Of a stretch of 64,000 nucleotides of DNA, positions 8,100-54,160 are shown one piece after another (position 1 is the stretch's first letter; every line of letters begins with the position of its first letter). The stretch is from Actinomycetota bacterium (lineage in GTDB: Bacteria > Actinomycetota > Acidimicrobiia > Actinomarinales > Actinomarinaceae): NCBI GenBank assembly GCA_014384285.1, contig JACNGE010000014.1:276513-340512 (forward strand). The letters are read 5' to 3'. The translations under genes and the position numbers were made by a program. A model generated the notes under the pieces. That model searched no databases. It was not told the DNA's origin and was given only the letters and a program-made list of their open reading frames with translations.

Positions 8100-9941
8100 T
8101 TAAATCTTACTCATCAAAAAGTGACTCATAGCTTGAATGGTAATCATTGGATTAACTCCTGAGCATCTAGGGAATGTTGAAGAATCAGTTATGTATACAT
8201 TTTCAAGTCCATGAACCTTGCCATTTAAATCTACAACACCTTCTTCTGGATTTGGATGAATTCTAGCAGTACCCATTTGATGAGCTGAACCAAGTAATAA
8301 CCTGTATTTTTGATTTTTTATTTTTTGAATGTTGCTAATGAACTCCTCAATATTTTGACCACTGCTTCTTTTCCAGTGCATAGTTGGTGAGGACGCAACC
8401 ATTATTTCATTTGCTTCCCCTAAATAGTAAGACCGCACAAGATCTATCAAGCCATCAATTAAGTGATTGTGGTCAAAATCATTAAAATTATAACTCCAGA
8501 GAGGATTATTTTTTTTGTTGATAATTTTCCCACTACTTGTATCAGAAGTTAAAACTATAGACCCTGACCAGAAATTATAATCTCTTATAAATCCATCGAA
8601 TGGATCGTTATTATTTGGAAAAAATGGAAAGAATAAACTAGGATGCATTGGAAGTCCTTCAAGCAAATATCCATAATTATTATTTTTAAATAAAGAGTCG
8701 TGAGAATAGATACCTTGCATACTTCCAGCCCAGGGTTTTTGTTCATTTTCAAACTTTCCAGCTACACCTGATACTGGGTGTAGCTTTAAATGTTTTCCAA
8801 GATGTTTGTTCTTGTAGCCACTATTTAGCAATATGCTGGGAGTGTTTAACGACCCTCCAGCCAGAACAACCTTATCAACACCGATAGTGTGAATCTCTGA
8901 ATTGTGCTCAACTTCAATGTGAGTTGCTTTGTCACCCCTTAAAATTAGTTTTTTAATTGTTGTTGAGCTGAAGATGTTATTCTGATCAAACTTATCTTTT
9001 CCAAACCAGGCAGAATAAGAGGTATTTCTACTATCGTAACCACATCCAAAAGTACAAAAACCACATTCTAAGCTATGTGAATTACTGACATTTGTGGGGA
9101 TAACTTCATAGTTGATATTATTAAGACTCATTCCTTTAGTAAGTTCGATCTCTTTTTGAGGAATGTGATTATTATTAGCTGAAACGTTTAATTTTTTACT
9201 AACAAAATCTAAACTCTGATTAAATTCAGATGAATTAAAATATCCCGTTTGTAATGATAAACTATCCCATTCCTGAAGTACCTGTTCAGGAGTTCTAAGA
9301 GATGTTGTCCAGTTAATACTAGTTCCACCTCCGATACTTTTTCCCGCAAGAAGTAATACATTGTAGTTTTTTGTTTGCTGCATAGCATAACTCTCGTAAA
9401 AATTGTGATAACCGAATGTTTCATTATTTGTTTCATTATTTAAAAAACTTCCCTTATCAAAGATGCCGACTTCATATTTATCTTTAAGTATATTGGCCGC
9501 AACACCACCTCCTGCACCGCTACCAACAACCGCAACCTCAATACTTTTTGGCAATTGATAATGATTTTTTTCAATTGTATTATTTTTATATTTGGGATAA
9601 TTAAAATAGTTATAAACAGCACTTGAACCCGTCAACGACCTTGCAGTACTTAACCCAAAGAGTGCGGTGATTGAAACACCTAATTTTCTATTCAGCATTA
9701 AGTTAGATTTTTGGAGCCTTTTTAAATAAGTAGCTATTCTTAGATCTTTTATAAAAATTTTCCTAATCTCAAAGGAAAAGAGTATTAAAAAAAGTCTAAG
9801 TTGAGCAATCTCTGTTTTATCAGGATAATTTTTCAAGATAAAGAAAAAATACTCCTCAGCATTCTTGGTTTCTTCTGCATTAAAATTTGGATATAAGCTT
9901 AAAAATATAGCTCTAAAACTTTTAACTATTCTCTTTTCCAT
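8100..9941 (-). CDS. GMC-family flavin oxidoreductase, long-chain-alcohol-oxidase-like
   Basis: This 613-aa protein has a roughly 130-residue N-terminal extension with no recognised catalytic motif, then an FAD-binding Rossmann motif VGSGAGGGVAANIL (about 139-152). A Cys-rich segment CGFCTFGC (C293, C296, C300) and the C-terminal GMC signature with GSAHQMGTARI and PCSGVNPM-like residues follow. The Cys segment and N-terminal extension resemble fatty-alcohol oxidases of plants and yeasts and related bacterial proteins rather than choline or glucose dehydrogenases. It probably oxidises a long-chain or sterol-like alcohol; the acceptor is unknown. A TAACAT box sits in leaderless position. It is divergent from the nuclease-like gene. 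Confidence 0.85.
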   Translation of the reverse strand: MEKRIVKSFRAIFLSLYPNFNAEETKNAEEYFFFILKNYPDKTEIAQLRLFLILFSFEIRKIFIKDLRIATYLKRLQKSNLMLNRKLGVSITALFGLSTARSLTGSSAVYNYFNYPKYKNNTIEKNHYQLPKSIEVAVVGSGAGGGVAANILKDKYEVGIFDKGSFLNNETNNETFGYHNFYESYAMQQTKNYNVLLLAGKSIGGGTSINWTTSLRTPEQVLQEWDSLSLQTGYFNSSEFNQSLDFVSKKLNVSANNNHIPQKEIELTKGMSLNNINYEVIPTNVSNSHSLECGFCTFGCGYDSRNTSYSAWFGKDKFDQNNIFSSTTIKKLILRGDKATHIEVEHNSEIHTIGVDKVVLAGGSLNTPSILLNSGYKNKHLGKHLKLHPVSGVAGKFENEQKPWAGSMQGIYSHDSLFKNNNYGYLLEGLPMHPSLFFPFFPNNNDPFDGFIRDYNFWSGSIVLTSDTSSGKIINKKNNPLWSYNFNDFDHNHLIDGLIDLVRSYYLGEANEIMVASSPTMHWKRSSGQNIEEFISNIQKIKNQKYRLLLGSAHQMGTARIHPNPEEGVVDLNGKVHGLENVYITDSSTFPRCSGVNPMITIQAMSHFLMSKI

Positions 9942-15275: not shown

Positions 15276-15847
15276 TGAATATACTTCTTGCAACTAAAAA
15301 TAAAAACAAATTTGAAGAAATTTCTAAAATTTTTGACGAATCAGGAAATTTTCATCGACTTGTGTATAAGGAAGAACTAATAGATGTCGTCGAAGATGGT
15401 AAGACGATATTAGAAAATGCAAAAAAAAAGGCATTTGAAGTCCATCAAGAATACAAACTTCCTGTAATTGCAGATGATTCTGGTTTATTTGTTGACAGTC
15501 TCAATGGTTTACCTGGATTACGTTCTAAAAGATTTGCTGGAGAGCAGGCCACAGATCAAGAAAATATAGACAAATTACTTAAAAGTCTCACTGAACAAGA
15601 TTACAAGGCAGCATATTTTAAGACCGTATTATATTTTTATGACGGGACAGATGAAATATATACAGAAGGAACTTTAAAGGGAGAAATAACCCACTCCCAA
15701 AGAGGTTTAAATGGATTCGGTTATGACTCAGTATTTGAATATGAAAATAAAACTCTCGCAGAGTTAACTTCTTTAGAGAAAAATAAAATTAGTCATAGAA
15801 GAATTGCTGCAGAGAAATTAATAGGAATTTTAAATGAAAAGATATAA
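15275..15847 (+). CDS. rdgB: XTP/dITP pyrophosphatase RdgB (HAM1)
   Basis: This 190-aa house-cleaning enzyme hydrolyses non-canonical purine nucleoside triphosphates (ITP, XTP). Signature segments are ATKNKNKFEEI at the N-terminus, ADDSGLFVDSLNGLPG with the catalytic acidic pair, and GFGYDSVFEY and SHRRIAAEKL near the C-terminus. The length is typical. The gene overlaps rph by 1 nt and the following lipoprotein gene by 14 nt, so the three are translated from one mRNA. Confidence 0.95.
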   Translation: MNILLATKNKNKFEEISKIFDESGNFHRLVYKEELIDVVEDGKTILENAKKKAFEVHQEYKLPVIADDSGLFVDSLNGLPGLRSKRFAGEQATDQENIDKLLKSLTEQDYKAAYFKTVLYFYDGTDEIYTEGTLKGEITHSQRGLNGFGYDSVFEYENKTLAELTSLEKNKISHRRIAAEKLIGILNEKI

Positions 15848-16517
15848 AAATTTATTATTAATACTCTGCTTTCTCATATTTTCTGCTTGTGAAGCTACTT
15901 GGACAATGGAGATGCAATTAAATGAAAATAACTCAGGGAACTACAGAATAGCTATTCTGTTAGATCAAGAAGCCCAGCTGTATGCTGTAGAAACTGGTCA
16001 AACCTCAATCGGAGGATTAAATGCTATCTTAAATTCAATGCCAGAGGGGTTTGGCTCAACTATTTACGAAGATAAAGACAAATTAGGTATATTAATAAGA
16101 AATAACTTTAGCTCTATTGAGGAGTTTGAGAGTCAACTAGAAGTGTTGAGGCAAGATGAAAACACAGAATTGTTACTACTTCCACTCTCAGAAATTGAAA
16201 TAATCTCAGATGGTTCAGAAAAGACTATCTCCGGTTCTTTTGCAAAAATTTTAAATGGAGCAGATGAAGAAATAGAGGGTATTGAAAATATTTACTCTGG
16301 AAGTTTAAGTATTAAGCTTCCAGGAAGGGTTGTAGAGCCAAAAATAGAAAATATAAATAACAATACAGTAATTTTTCAACACTCAGGTCTACTAAAGCAA
16401 ACCTTTTTAATGTCGTCAACAACACAAGAGCTGCGAGACATCTATATAATTGGAGTTCTATTTTCACTTCTCTTGCTAGGATATATAATTGCTAGACAAC
16501 GCAACAATAAGAAGTAA
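15834..16517 (+). CDS. LppM-like lipoprotein (DUF3153-type) with C-terminal membrane span
   Basis: The 227-aa product starts with a lipoprotein signal peptide ending in a lipobox, LIFSAC (C19 lipidated). A beta-rich extracytoplasmic domain follows (about 22-190), then a C-terminal hydrophobic span (about 203-221) and a basic tail ending RNNKK. This architecture, a lipobox at one end and a transmembrane helix at the other, is that of actinobacterial LppM-type DUF3153 proteins. The role is unclear; mycobacterial LppM has been linked to envelope and host interaction. It overlaps rdgB by 14 nt. Its stop codon is 9 nt before the cimA leader peptide. Confidence 0.75.
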   Translation: MKRYKNLLLILCFLIFSACEATWTMEMQLNENNSGNYRIAILLDQEAQLYAVETGQTSIGGLNAILNSMPEGFGSTIYEDKDKLGILIRNNFSSIEEFESQLEVLRQDENTELLLLPLSEIEIISDGSEKTISGSFAKILNGADEEIEGIENIYSGSLSIKLPGRVVEPKIENINNNTVIFQHSGLLKQTFLMSSTTQELRDIYIIGVLFSLLLLGYIIARQRNNKK

Positions 16518-16526
16518 TATTGAAAC

Positions 16527-16553
16527 ATGATAAATATCATAATTATTAACTAA
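16527..16553 (+). CDS. cimA leader peptide (MINIIIIN)
   Basis: ATG at 16527 is followed by ATA AAT ATC ATA ATT ATT AAC TAA, encoding MINIIIIN. Five of eight codons are isoleucine, four consecutive, and they include the rare-type ATA. A weak purine stretch (AAGAAG, about 16510-16514) may serve as ribosome binding site. Position, Ile content and the hairpins immediately behind it support a regulatory leader peptide. AT-rich DNA produces Ile codons often, so the argument rests on the whole arrangement. Confidence 0.7.
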   Translation: MINIIIIN

Positions 16554-16576
16554 GGACAACGAGAATATCGTTGTTA

Positions 16577-16602
16577 CCCTTGCATGGCAGGGGTTTTTTT
16601 TT
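16577..16602 (+). terminator. Rho-independent terminator of cimA attenuator
   Basis: CCCTTGC (16577-16583) pairs with GCAGGGG (16587-16593) around an ATG loop, with one G.T wobble, and is followed directly by nine T (16594-16602). The cimA ATG is only 4 nt after the T-run. I saw no comparable GC-rich stem plus long T-run elsewhere in the window. Confidence 0.8.
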
Positions 16603-16606
16603 GGAT

Positions 16607-18163
16607 ATGAAAATAGATATATTTGACACAACTTTAAGAGATGGCTTTCAACAGGAGGGTATATCACCCTCTGTAAAAGATAAGCTTGCTATTGCTAAAT
16701 TACTTGATGATTTAGGAGTAAATTTCATAGAAGGTGGATGGCCCGGAGCCTCACCTAAAGAAGAAGAATTTTTTAGCAAAGCTAAAACAGAACTTACTCT
16801 TAAGAATGCAAAATTGGTGAGTTTTGGCTCTACTAGAAAACTTAATTCAAAAGTAGATGAAGATCCACAGGTTAAAGCACTGATCGATTCAGGAACTGAT
16901 TTTGTTTGCATAGTGGGCAAATCTTCAAAGCTTCATATAACAAAAGCATTACAAACGGATGTTGAAAGTGCAATTTCAATGGCAGTTGACACAATAGAAT
17001 ATCTTTCTTCGAATGGAAAAAGAGTCTTTTTTGATGCGGAACACTTTTTTGATGGGTACAAGGAAGATCCAAATACAAGTTTCAAAATAATGGATGCTGT
17101 AATAACAACTGGTGTCGATTGCTTTATATTTTGTGACACGAATGGGGGAACACTTCCTTCAGAAGTCGAACAAATCTTATCTGAAGTGCTTCCAAAGTAT
17201 AAAATTCAAAAGTTTGGGGTACATTTTCAAAATGACAACGGTTGCGCTGTTCCTAATTCAATGGTTGCAGTTAATTTAGGAGTTGATCATGTTCAAGGAA
17301 CAATGAATGGTTATGGTGAAAGAACAGGAAACGCCGACTTGTGTACTTTATTGCCTAACCTCTCTTTGAAAATGGGACATGAATCAATAAGCGTAGAATC
17401 TTTAAAATTGCTTACACCAATAGCTACCCATATTGCGGAATTAGTCAATGTTTCAATTGACTCTAGACATCCATATGTAGGTTCAGCGGCATTTACTCAT
17501 AAAGCAGGTCTTCATGCATCTGGAATGGCTAAAGACAGTTCACTCTATGAACACATTGACTCTTCGTTAGTAGGAAATTATACACGGACTACAGTTTCAG
17601 AATTAGCAGGTAGAGCCAGTGTTATAACAAAGGCAAATGAATTCGGATTAGAGTTCTCTAATGAAGATGCCAGAGAGTTAATCAATGAAGTTCAAAATCT
17701 TGAACATGCTGGTTATCAATTCGAAGCTGCAGATGCCTCACTTTATTTACTTATGAACAAAGTAAAAAGTAATGTGCCTAAATTCTTTACATTTGAAAGC
17801 TTCAGAGTATTTTCTGAAAGAAGAAATTCTGAAAACGTCATATCAGAAGCAGTGACTAAATTAAGAGTCAATGAAAATAGATATGTAACAACTGGTGAAG
17901 GTGTTGGTCCTGTGGATGCTCTAAGCAAAGCACTTGTAACAGCTTTACAAATAGACTATCCAAATGTTACAACAATCAAGCTTGTTGACTATAAAGTGAG
18001 GATTATTGACTCTACTGATGGTACTGAAGCTAAAACAAGAGTATTAGTTGAGTTTACTGACTCAACTAAAAACTGGAGTACAATTGGTGTCCACAAAAAT
18101 ATTATAAATGCCTCTTGGAATGCACTTTGTGACGGATTTAATTACTACTTTATGACAAGCTAA
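16607..18163 (+). CDS. cimA: (R)-citramalate synthase
   Basis: This 518-aa member of the HMGL-like/2-isopropylmalate synthase family condenses pyruvate with acetyl-CoA to citramalate, the first step of the threonine-independent route to isoleucine. Motifs include DTTLRDGFQQEG at the N-terminus and FQNDNGCAVPNS and NGYGERTGNADL in the barrel. The C-terminal regulatory domain (about 385-518) is of the LeuA dimer/allosteric type. The long form of about 520 aa with GGWPGASPKE distinguishes CimA from LeuA. An upstream TTG (16571) in frame would translate the terminator and is rejected; ATG 16607 gives the normal MKIDIFDTT N-terminus. It is preceded by the Ile attenuator and followed by acs. Confidence 0.93.
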   Translation: MKIDIFDTTLRDGFQQEGISPSVKDKLAIAKLLDDLGVNFIEGGWPGASPKEEEFFSKAKTELTLKNAKLVSFGSTRKLNSKVDEDPQVKALIDSGTDFVCIVGKSSKLHITKALQTDVESAISMAVDTIEYLSSNGKRVFFDAEHFFDGYKEDPNTSFKIMDAVITTGVDCFIFCDTNGGTLPSEVEQILSEVLPKYKIQKFGVHFQNDNGCAVPNSMVAVNLGVDHVQGTMNGYGERTGNADLCTLLPNLSLKMGHESISVESLKLLTPIATHIAELVNVSIDSRHPYVGSAAFTHKAGLHASGMAKDSSLYEHIDSSLVGNYTRTTVSELAGRASVITKANEFGLEFSNEDARELINEVQNLEHAGYQFEAADASLYLLMNKVKSNVPKFFTFESFRVFSERRNSENVISEAVTKLRVNENRYVTTGEGVGPVDALSKALVTALQIDYPNVTTIKLVDYKVRIIDSTDGTEAKTRVLVEFTDSTKNWSTIGVHKNIINASWNALCDGFNYYFMTS

Positions 18164-20663: not shown

Positions 20664-20746
20664 TGCGGATGAGAGGACTCGAACCTCCACGAGCAAAGCT
20701 CACTGGATCCTAAATCCAGCGCGTCTACCAGTTCCGCCACATCCGC
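20664..20746 (-). tRNA. tRNA-Leu (TAG)
   Basis: A class II tRNA of 83 nt with a long variable arm. Acceptor GCGGATG pairs with CATCCGC and the discriminator is A. The anticodon stem CTGGA/TCCAG closes loop TTTAGGA (TAG, complement of 20710-20712). The T-arm GGAGG-TTCGAGT-CCTCT is close to perfect. It lies downstream of tRNA-Lys on the same strand. Confidence 0.95.
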
Positions 20747-20758
20747 TAAAATGTCGCG

Positions 20759-20831
20759 TGGGTCGCCGGGGACTTGAACCCCGAACCTGCGGATTAAGAG
20801 TCCGATGCTCTGCCAGTTGAGCTAGCGACCC
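20759..20831 (-). tRNA. tRNA-Lys (CTT)
   Basis: A 73-nt cloverleaf. Acceptor GGGTCGC pairs with GCGACCC and the discriminator is A. The anticodon loop is CTCTTAA (CTT, complement of 20796-20798) and the T-arm is CGGGG-TTCAAGT-CCCCG. It is 12 nt from tRNA-Leu, so both probably share a transcript. Confidence 0.95.
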
Positions 20832-20926
20832 TTTTATACAGATTAACCGAACTAAGATTACTTAACTATTATTTTTTTATTTATTGTTTCCATAAAACCA
20901 GTATCATGGAACAATAATTAGACATA
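20832..20926. promoter_or_regulatory. Divergent promoter region between the two tRNA groups
   Basis: This 95-nt AT-rich gap separates the minus-strand Leu/Lys pair from the plus-strand Pro-Gly-Arg-His run. A TATCAT (20902-20907) is a candidate -10 for the plus-strand tRNAs, with the mature tRNA-Pro beginning 19 nt later. No convincing -35 box was found for either side. Confidence 0.35.
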
Positions 20927-21001
20927 CGGGCTGTGGCTCAGCTTGGCTAGAGCGCCTGCTTTGGGAGCAGGAGGTCGTGAGTTCGAATCTCACCAGCCCG
21001 A
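20927..21001 (+). tRNA. tRNA-Pro (TGG)
   Basis: A 75-nt cloverleaf. Acceptor CGGGCTG pairs with CAGCCCG and the discriminator is A. The anticodon stem CCTGC/GCAGG encloses TTTGGGA (TGG at 20962-20964) and the T-arm is GTGAG-TTCGAAT-CTCAC. First of four plus-strand tRNAs. Confidence 0.95.
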
Positions 21002-21015
21002 CTAACTGCATTATT

Positions 21016-21086
21016 GCGGGTGTAGCTTAATGGCAAAGCTCCAGCCTTCCAAGCTGGCTATGAGGGTTCGATTCCCTTCACCCGCT
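21016..21086 (+). tRNA. tRNA-Gly (TCC)
   Basis: A 71-nt cloverleaf. Acceptor GCGGGTG pairs with CACCCGC and the discriminator is T. The anticodon loop is CTTCCAA (TCC) within CCAGC/GCTGG, and the T-arm is GAGGG-TTCGATT-CCCTT with a terminal wobble. Confidence 0.95.
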
Positions 21087-21090
21087 CGAG

Positions 21091-21164
21091 GCTCTCGTAG
21101 CTCAAATGGATAGAGCAACAGACTTCTAATCTGTAGGTTATAGGTTCGAGTCCTATCGAGAGCG
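21091..21164 (+). tRNA. tRNA-Arg (TCT)
   Basis: A 74-nt cloverleaf. Acceptor GCTCTCG pairs with CGAGAGC and the discriminator is G. The anticodon loop is CTTCTAA (TCT) in an AGA/TCT stem, and the T-arm is ATAGG-TTCGAGT-CCTAT. It reads AGA, the dominant Arg codon in the genes around it. Confidence 0.94.
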
Positions 21165-21169
21165 CGCGT

Positions 21170-21244
21170 GGTGGTCGTAGCTCAGTTGGTTAGAGCACCT
21201 GGTTGTGGTCCAGGATGTCGCGGGTTCGAATCCCGTCGATCACC
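21170..21244 (+). tRNA. tRNA-His (GTG)
   Basis: Acceptor GTGGTCG pairs with CGATCAC (one G.T wobble). The extra G-1 (21170) opposite C73 (21244), the identity pair of tRNA-His, is encoded in the DNA. The anticodon loop is TTGTGGT (GTG) and the T-arm is GCGGG-TTCGAAT-CCCGT. It is 25 nt upstream of the tig start codon with no promoter in between, so tig may be cotranscribed with the tRNA run. Confidence 0.95.
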
Positions 21245-53483: not shown

Positions 53484-54160
53484 TGACAAAATTATTAATT
53501 ACTGAAAAACTTATCACTACAAAAAGAGAATTTACAGATTTTTCAAATCTTCCGGATAGTGTAGATTTTATTAAGTATGAAGATTTCACTTCAAATACAA
53601 CATTATCTTTATTTACAGAGAACCAGGCAAAATTTATCTATGATAAATATGTAACTTATAGTGAATTGGTTTCAAATGATTACAATTTCTCATCAGATTT
53701 CATATTTCAGATTAAAAAAAACAATTTGAGCAAATTTTCTGAAGTTTCTTCTGATATTGAAGTGATTCATGGATCTAACCACAACAGTGTTGATTTTCTA
53801 CCTTGGGATTTGTCTAATATAATTTTTAATAAAAAAGATTTTTTAACTTTTCATATTATGTCTGAATTTTGCGAAAACGAAAATCTTTTTCGACAGTTTA
53901 TTGCTTATTTGAATAAAGAATTATCTAGAGTGAATCTATTAATTGATAATGATTTGGCTAATACATCGAAACTCTTCAATGAAAAAACGGATTATAAATA
54001 CGAACTTGCAAATAGAAGATTACAAAATATAAGTAAAGAAAATCTTGAAAAGTCTTTCGAACAGATTCATAAAATTGAAAAACTGATGAATCAAACAGGA
54101 TTCAATCAGGAAAATGCAAAAAGATTTGTAGTTGGTATTAAAAAACTATTAGAGTTTTGA
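53483..54160 (+). CDS. Short HolA-like protein (putative DNA polymerase III delta subunit)
   Basis: The 225-aa product has no strong motif, but its position between leuS and rpsT is that of holA in actinobacteria. The C-terminal part (YELANRRLQNISKENLEKSFEQI, abbreviated YELANRRLQ...) has the helical pattern of the delta C-terminal collar domain (R-LA..A...S.EEL...L..I..ie..mK). Typical HolA has about 320-340 aa, so about 100 residues are missing, mainly from the N-terminal clamp-opening and AAA-like region. TGATG overlap with leuS sets ATG 53483 as start. It overlaps convergent rpsT by 12 nt. If true, this is a strongly reduced clamp-loader subunit; otherwise it is of unknown function. Confidence 0.5.
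   Translation: MTKLLITEKLITTKREFTDFSNLPDSVDFIKYEDFTSNTTLSLFTENQAKFIYDKYVTYSELVSNDYNFSSDFIFQIKKNNLSKFSEVSSDIEVIHGSNHNSVDFLPWDLSNIIFNKKDFLTFHIMSEFCENENLFRQFIAYLNKELSRVNLLIDNDLANTSKLFNEKTDYKYELANRRLQNISKENLEKSFEQIHKIEKLMNQTGFNQENAKRFVVGIKKLLEF

Follow-up and report, generated by a model that had tools for sequence, protein, structure and literature searches.

The locus and the predicted cimA leader

The stretch of DNA analysed here, which we call the window, comprises 64,000 nt of a Candidatus Actinomarina genome (assembly of 1.1 Mb in 17 contigs). The regulated gene, cimA, occupies positions 16607-18163 of the forward strand and its product scored 617 bits against TIGR00977, the equivalog model for citramalate synthase (cut-off 450). 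All leader features described below are on the same strand, as is the small gene that precedes them (15834-16517 in the ORF list), which provides context and encodes a probable lipoprotein. For the threonine deaminase family TIGR01127 (ilvA) there was no match in 41 Actinomarina genomes, with 14 of 14 control genomes positive, and for this reason CimA looks like the only known entry into isoleucine synthesis seen in the genus, the assemblies being incomplete. Elsewhere in the window six tRNA genes are clustered at 20664-21244, on both strands.

Ahead of cimA a leader ORF encoding MINIIIIN, conserved in congeners, extends from the ATG at 16527 to the TAA at 16553. Five of its codons specify isoleucine, namely ATA, ATC, ATA, ATT and ATT at 16530, 16536, 16539, 16542 and 16545. 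The promoter scan placed a −35-like element (TAGACA, 16493-16498) within the 3' end of the upstream gene, followed by the −10-like element TAATAT at 16515-16520 (alternatively AATATT at 16516-16521). The latter is a TANTAT-type hexamer with the same spacing in congeners and the stop codon of the upstream gene sits inside it. It ends 6 nt before the leader ATG, and transcription is predicted to start approximately at that ATG. In all nine sampled Actinomarina cimA leaders the promoter score near the leader ATG was at least 9 out of 12, compared to 3% of random positions, and none of the nine had a Shine-Dalgarno-like 4-mer at −12 to −4 of the leader ORF. For 31 other cimA leaders we observed a score of at least 9 out of 12 in 68%, compared to 0% at random positions, the typical promoter being TTGACN-17-CATACT with 6-11 nt between its end and the ATG; a Shine-Dalgarno-like 4-mer occurred in 3 of these 31. 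Based on the promoter spacing we infer that the leader ORF is probably leaderless, with a transcript beginning at the ATG or a few nt from it. Published marine 5'-end data were searched for Actinomarina start sites and none were obtained. Reported examples are the leaderless leader peptides of Streptomyces lividans (PMC8079986) and one in C. glutamicum that is nearly leaderless (PMC11857589).

Two hairpins fill the interval between the leader ORF and cimA. A single nucleotide separates the leader stop codon from hairpin A (16555-16575, 8 bp, closed by a G-U pair), the 5' arm of which would be occluded by a ribosome positioned on that codon. Hairpin A is directly followed, with a gap of 0 nt, by terminator hairpin T (16576-16594, 8 bp, loop of 3), in which the stem 16577-16593 gains one A-U pair, 16576:16594. 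Both hairpins are part of the minimum-energy fold, keep their pairing in congeners and covary across the class. The U-tract consists of nine T at 16594-16602, the first of which is also part of the basal pair of T, and the run is invariant in 25 aligned congeners. The four nucleotides GGAT separate it from the cimA ATG at 16607. The leader folded more stably than its dinucleotide shuffles (z = −4.06; 0 of 200 equally stable) and a longer stretch around it gave z = −3.75. The first-pass annotation of this DNA had placed the ORF, a pairing over 16552-16581 discussed below, the terminator, the nine T and the cimA ATG correctly to the base.

When both strands of the 64 kb were scanned for stems with a minimum of 6 bp and 4 GC pairs ahead of six or more T, terminator T was the sole match, and the same criteria found nothing in 20 shuffled windows. 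The first-pass annotation had stated that almost no other intrinsic terminator is kept, which within the window agrees with T being the only strong candidate. A looser scan of the window for promoters and terminators showed no excess over shuffles, and the terminator result is that of the stricter scan.

Conservation in Actinomarina and across Acidimicrobiia

Full-length cimA loci were found 28 times among 42 Actinomarina genomes. All 28 carry an Ile-rich ORF, hairpin A, terminator T and about nine T directly before cimA, and none of these loci lacks the Ile run or the stems. The order is also the same in 28 of 28: TAGACA, 16-17 nt, a TANTAT-like hexamer, 6-7 nt, ATG, the Ile-rich ORF, A, T and cimA. 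At one locus (L006) the distance from hexamer to ATG is 9 nt and the earlier ATG reads ATA. Among the congener leaders are MMNIIIIN, MNIIIII, MKKIIIII, MINFIIII, MINFIIIT and MKKIIIIV, and the congener terminator has the form CCCUUGC-NNN-GCARGGG with about nine T. Across the 25 distinct congener rows 99.3% of cells were paired overall, with 99.5% for hairpin A, including one A-U/U-A double change, and 99% for terminator T. As variation within Actinomarina is limited, it is the class and not the genus that bears the covariation argument.

Acidimicrobiia in which CimA has ~50% protein identity show the same layout of stop codon, hairpin A, terminator and U-tract, with leaders such as MTTNPTWTIIIIE, MHHFFDGIIIID and MNCHTGIIID. 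The 25 distinct Actinomarina elements and the first 22 Acidimicrobiia elements were located by gene neighbourhood and not by a model. A covariance model (R1) trained on seven Acidimicrobiia elements, with Actinomarina left out, recovered the window element with 24.1 bits (E about 1e-3); further matches were elements that precede leuB and lie ~2 kb before cimA. The refined model R2 gave a single match in each of 29 Actinomarina genomes. It matched 318 of 395 class genomes (153 of 184 genera) as well as 73 of the 397 genomes sampled across the phylum, some of which belong to the class; these counts are not corrected for phylogeny and the sequences are related, hence not independent. Five model matches (L177, L182, L189, L190 and L203) lacked a leader peptide or a branched-chain amino acid gene and were treated as likely false positives. 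Judged by its sequence matches the predicted element is class-wide across Acidimicrobiia and not specific to Actinomarina.

In an alignment of 56 elements we observed compensatory changes at 18 of the 19 base pairs, 10 of 10 in hairpin A and 8 of 9 in terminator T. The first-pass annotation had proposed aligning relatives in search of conserved Ile codons and covariation in both stems, and both were found. Altogether 97.8% of the cells were paired, compared to 79% after shuffling and 34-59% after sliding, and the observed level of covariation was reached in 0 of 500 shuffles; as this alignment was fitted to the structure, it leans towards it. In all 124 typed elements the stop codon is separated from hairpin A by 0-1 nt and A from T by 0-7 nt (0 nt in Actinomarina), matches found by the model sharing its geometry by construction. 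In the elements examined the T-rich tract after terminator T has a median of 5-6 U in 8 nt.

A structured, conserved leader preceding a biosynthetic gene could also be a riboswitch, a T-box or a protein-bound leader that senses its effector directly. We regard this as extremely improbable. Neither the window element nor any of 16 further loci carrying the element matched an Rfam family at gathering thresholds, and searches near the window element at E up to 10 returned nothing relevant. Furthermore, the interval from stop codon to T is too short for an aptamer, and the conservation is chiefly in codons and pairing. Another possibility is translational control, in which T, or A together with T, hides the cimA start and stalling opens it, with no role for transcription termination. 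The U-tract does end 4 nt before the cimA ATG in the window, and some actinobacterial leaders act on translation, for example the ileS T-boxes (PMC1262725) and the Cys leaders of M. smegmatis (PMC13236596). However, a T-rich tract follows the terminator throughout the elements examined, up to the nine T of Actinomarina, and cimA begins tens of nt further downstream of the element in other Acidimicrobiia than it does in the window. Control at the level of translation is thus improbable in our view.

Leader codons and the genes downstream

We assigned the downstream genes to types through their resemblance to exemplars, NCBIfam confirming most of them, and counted residue composition over the last six leader residues. 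The cimA leaders (n = 41) contained 57% Ile, 2% Val and 2% Leu. For the ilvB leaders (n = 32) the rates were 12% Ile, 29% Val and 34% Leu. In other Actinomycetota the element type occurs with Leu-codon leaders before leuA (n = 3; L179, L181, L187; Leu 61%) and leuS (n = 2; L176, L193; Leu 42%). In many Acidimicrobiia (L071, L082, L084, L094 and others; positions ~760-1010 in the locus) the element precedes a leuB-first operon with cimA ~2 kb downstream. The leaders of these operons (n = 46) carry Ile and Val codons (39% and 21%) and not Leu (2%), although leuB leads. Since R1 was trained on Ile leaders, its bias counts against recovering Val/Leu leaders.

The same association was observed within genomes. 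Seven genomes have both elements, with cimA leaders like TTTIIIT compared to ilvB leaders like PLVVLIT. The contrast of Val/Leu ilvB leaders and Ile cimA leaders holds inside Actinomarina too: the source genome has an attenuator-like element ahead of ilvB (G000:C17, just upstream of base 53749 on the minus strand; L210) with the leader MKKLYVFITLLVLVLT, a stop codon abutting the hairpin, a terminator CCTCCC..GGGAGG and nine T. All 16 Actinomarina ilvB loci examined had leaders such as MKKLYVFITLLVLVLT, in which the stop codon is likewise followed by a hairpin and then a terminator. At the level of single codons, isoleucine is preserved at codons −2 to −4 of the cimA leaders by exchange among ATT, ATC and ATA. 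Codon −3 was ATT in 29 of the 41 leaders, ATC in 10 and another codon in 2, i.e. 39 of 41 encode Ile at this position. As the leader codons track the downstream gene both within genomes and between lineages, sequence alone supports amino-acid specificity.

By itself the Ile run is weak evidence. Tiny ORFs with four consecutive Ile codons arise by chance at 0-3 per shuffled window, and the window contains two. The second is found at 8643 (MHWKSFKQISIIIIFK), where a strong terminator is absent nearby, and looks like chance. T might simply serve to end transcription of the upstream gene, with the Ile-rich ORF being fortuitous in such AT-rich DNA. This reading was already disfavoured in the analysis and we give it almost no weight: in GC-rich members of the class the Ile codons persist as ATC and ATT, and the codons change to Val/Leu or to Leu along with the gene.

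The Actinomarinales genome paper described auxotrophy for Arg, His and Trp together with a limited capacity for regulation (PMC7771536), and the retention of attenuation in branched-chain synthesis is in line with this. The view of the cimA leader as a lone retained regulator did not survive, as the same genome has the putative Val/Leu sister attenuator before ilvB. A genome-reduced ocean bacterium reported to be poor in regulation (PMC7771536) thus appears to retain two putative branched-chain attenuators.

Proposed operation of the leader and relation to known attenuators

We consider it very likely that cimA is controlled by a ribosome-mediated transcription attenuator sensing charged tRNA-Ile. 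The first-pass annotation had put forward such an attenuator, and its proposal has gained strong comparative support from the conservation of the element, the synonymous exchange of Ile codons, the match between codons and gene, the covariation and CimA as the sole isoleucine entry seen. Three features by which an attenuator is recognised are present in the leader: an Ile-rich ORF, an intrinsic terminator before the gene and, according to the geometry, a hairpin whose formation depends on the position of the ribosome. Transcription would start at or next to the leader ATG and the leader peptide would be translated without a Shine-Dalgarno site. If isoleucine is ample the ribosome would reach the stop codon and its leading edge would cover the 5' arm of hairpin A. 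With A blocked, T would fold and RNA polymerase would halt 4 nt before cimA. If isoleucine is scarce the ribosome would stall on the Ile run, a position that would leave most or all of the 5' arm of A free. Hairpin A would then form and hinder the directly abutting T, and cimA would be transcribed. Such a switch would probably turn cimA on only when isoleucine is scarce.

The manner in which A would oppose T differs from the original proposal of two mutually exclusive hairpins. There, an extended antiterminator was drawn over 16552-16581, with 7 bp (16556-16562:16568-16574), a further 4 bp (16552-16555:16578-16581) and a 3-nt bulge at 16575-16577. This pairing is possible and its outer 4 bp compete with T, so the exclusion stands only for the structure as drawn. 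The minimum-energy fold, however, holds the 8-bp hairpin A and T side by side, adjacent and non-overlapping, at −21.2 kcal/mol compared to −10.6 kcal/mol for the drawn antiterminator, which is the best fold solely for transcripts ending at 16582-16590. The extension is also poorly conserved, one pair of the outer 4 bp being lost in 16 of 25 congeners, and strict exclusion by an 11-bp antiterminator lacks support. An extension of A into T reached −1.9 kcal/mol in native Actinomarina cimA leaders and −2.6 kcal/mol with a shuffled right flank, i.e. it was no better than shuffled. With the outer pair lost and no gain over the shuffled flank, it found no support as a conserved exclusion in this group, and base sharing is not established for the window element. 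In the leuB and ilvB groups the extension does beat the shuffled flank. We rejected an in-ORF hairpin (AUGAU/AUCAU) as a protector, as it is missing from the MKKIIIII group.

The folding with a masked leader that had been suggested as a check gave a divided answer. Masking to stop+12 abolished hairpin A and kept T in the predicted folds, as the geometry implies, and at equilibrium T was predicted at a probability of ~0.99 or more in every ribosome state folded. The switch would thus have to be kinetic or steric. By elimination hairpin A would have to oppose T, because the switch would otherwise not run in a sensible direction. The two could compete for a few junction bases, as in C. glutamicum ilvBNC, or, as an alternative of our own, A may crowd against the base of T inside the RNA exit channel.

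One could instead read hairpin A as a device for pausing or timing by which a ribosome on the leaderless ORF gains time to catch up, with something else blocking T on stalling. The lack of overlap between A and T, and the folding of both at equilibrium, are in keeping with this, and a pausing role has been proposed for a leader hairpin in C. glutamicum ilvBNC (PMC11857589). We judge this unlikely, though less so than the readings above, as another conserved antiterminator candidate is absent from these leaders of ~75 nt and the fixed distance of 0-1 nt between stop codon and A suits ribosome-position-dependent formation.

In the Gram-negative ilvL/ilvG and trp leaders scarce charged tRNA leads to stalling and readthrough by way of four-segment, mutually exclusive pairing. 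The attenuator proposed for cimA would share the stall-readthrough logic, but the element lacks a conserved protector 1:2 hairpin and an extensive shared strand, and an untranslated cimA leader would for that reason form hairpin A. Tentatively, the elements could represent an actinobacterial attenuator subclass in which a hairpin at the stop codon blocks the terminator by abutment rather than by strand sharing, the leader is leaderless and readthrough is the default when no ribosome is present; we hold this to be possible but doubtful.

Closer parallels are found among Actinobacteria. The M. tuberculosis ilvB1NC leader likewise has regulatory codons, an antiterminator blocked by a ribosome at the stop codon and a Rho-independent terminator, and a change of LVVI to AAAA abolished induction of ilvB1 (PMC13236596). 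It differs in the gene, which is ilvB1 and not cimA, in its length of 166 nt compared to ~80 nt here, and in that its antiterminator and terminator are described as mutually exclusive (PMC13236596), whereas A and T coexist in our minimum-energy fold. The nearest tested case is C. glutamicum ilvBNC, in which abutting hairpin bases compete for three nucleotides (PMC11857589). This leader, which carries the ilvB-II motif, resembles the cimA element in its ORF of branched-chain amino acid codons with a start adjoining the transcript start, in the abutting bases of antiterminator and terminator and in the intrinsic terminator before a branched-chain amino acid gene (PMC11857589, PMC10272879). Its gene is ilvB, and it has three hairpins, including an anti-antiterminator that covers the ORF, and a GCC trinucleotide shared between hairpins (PMC11857589, PMC10272879); the cimA element has two, with A starting at the stop codon, and they share little or no sequence. 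Compared by description only, the ilvB-II motif of Corynebacterium has its uORF inside P1, and terminator and antiterminator share part of P2.

Short, amino-acid-rich leaders, several with terminators, were also described as candidate attenuators of leuS, trp and ilvB in Actinobacteria, the mode of action at ilvB being unclear (Seliverstov 2005, PMC1262725). The S. lividans leader peptides are similarly short and often leaderless, and stand before biosynthetic or tRNA-synthetase genes (PMC8079986). Neither of these two studies reported cimA or Acidimicrobiia, and our literature search, which reached few of the subscription journals, brought up no publication describing attenuation of cimA or any attenuator in Acidimicrobiia. 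The class of mechanism is already known, and the predicted cimA element is a new, class-wide addition to the actinobacterial attenuators of branched-chain amino acid synthesis. With it, cimA and the synthesis of isoleucine from pyruvate would have a cis-regulatory switch for which no description was found, conserved over most of a class with mostly uncultured members. At some positions the ilvB leaders collected here (L164-L202) most often use CTT and GTA, which have been named as control codons of C. glutamicum ilvBNC.
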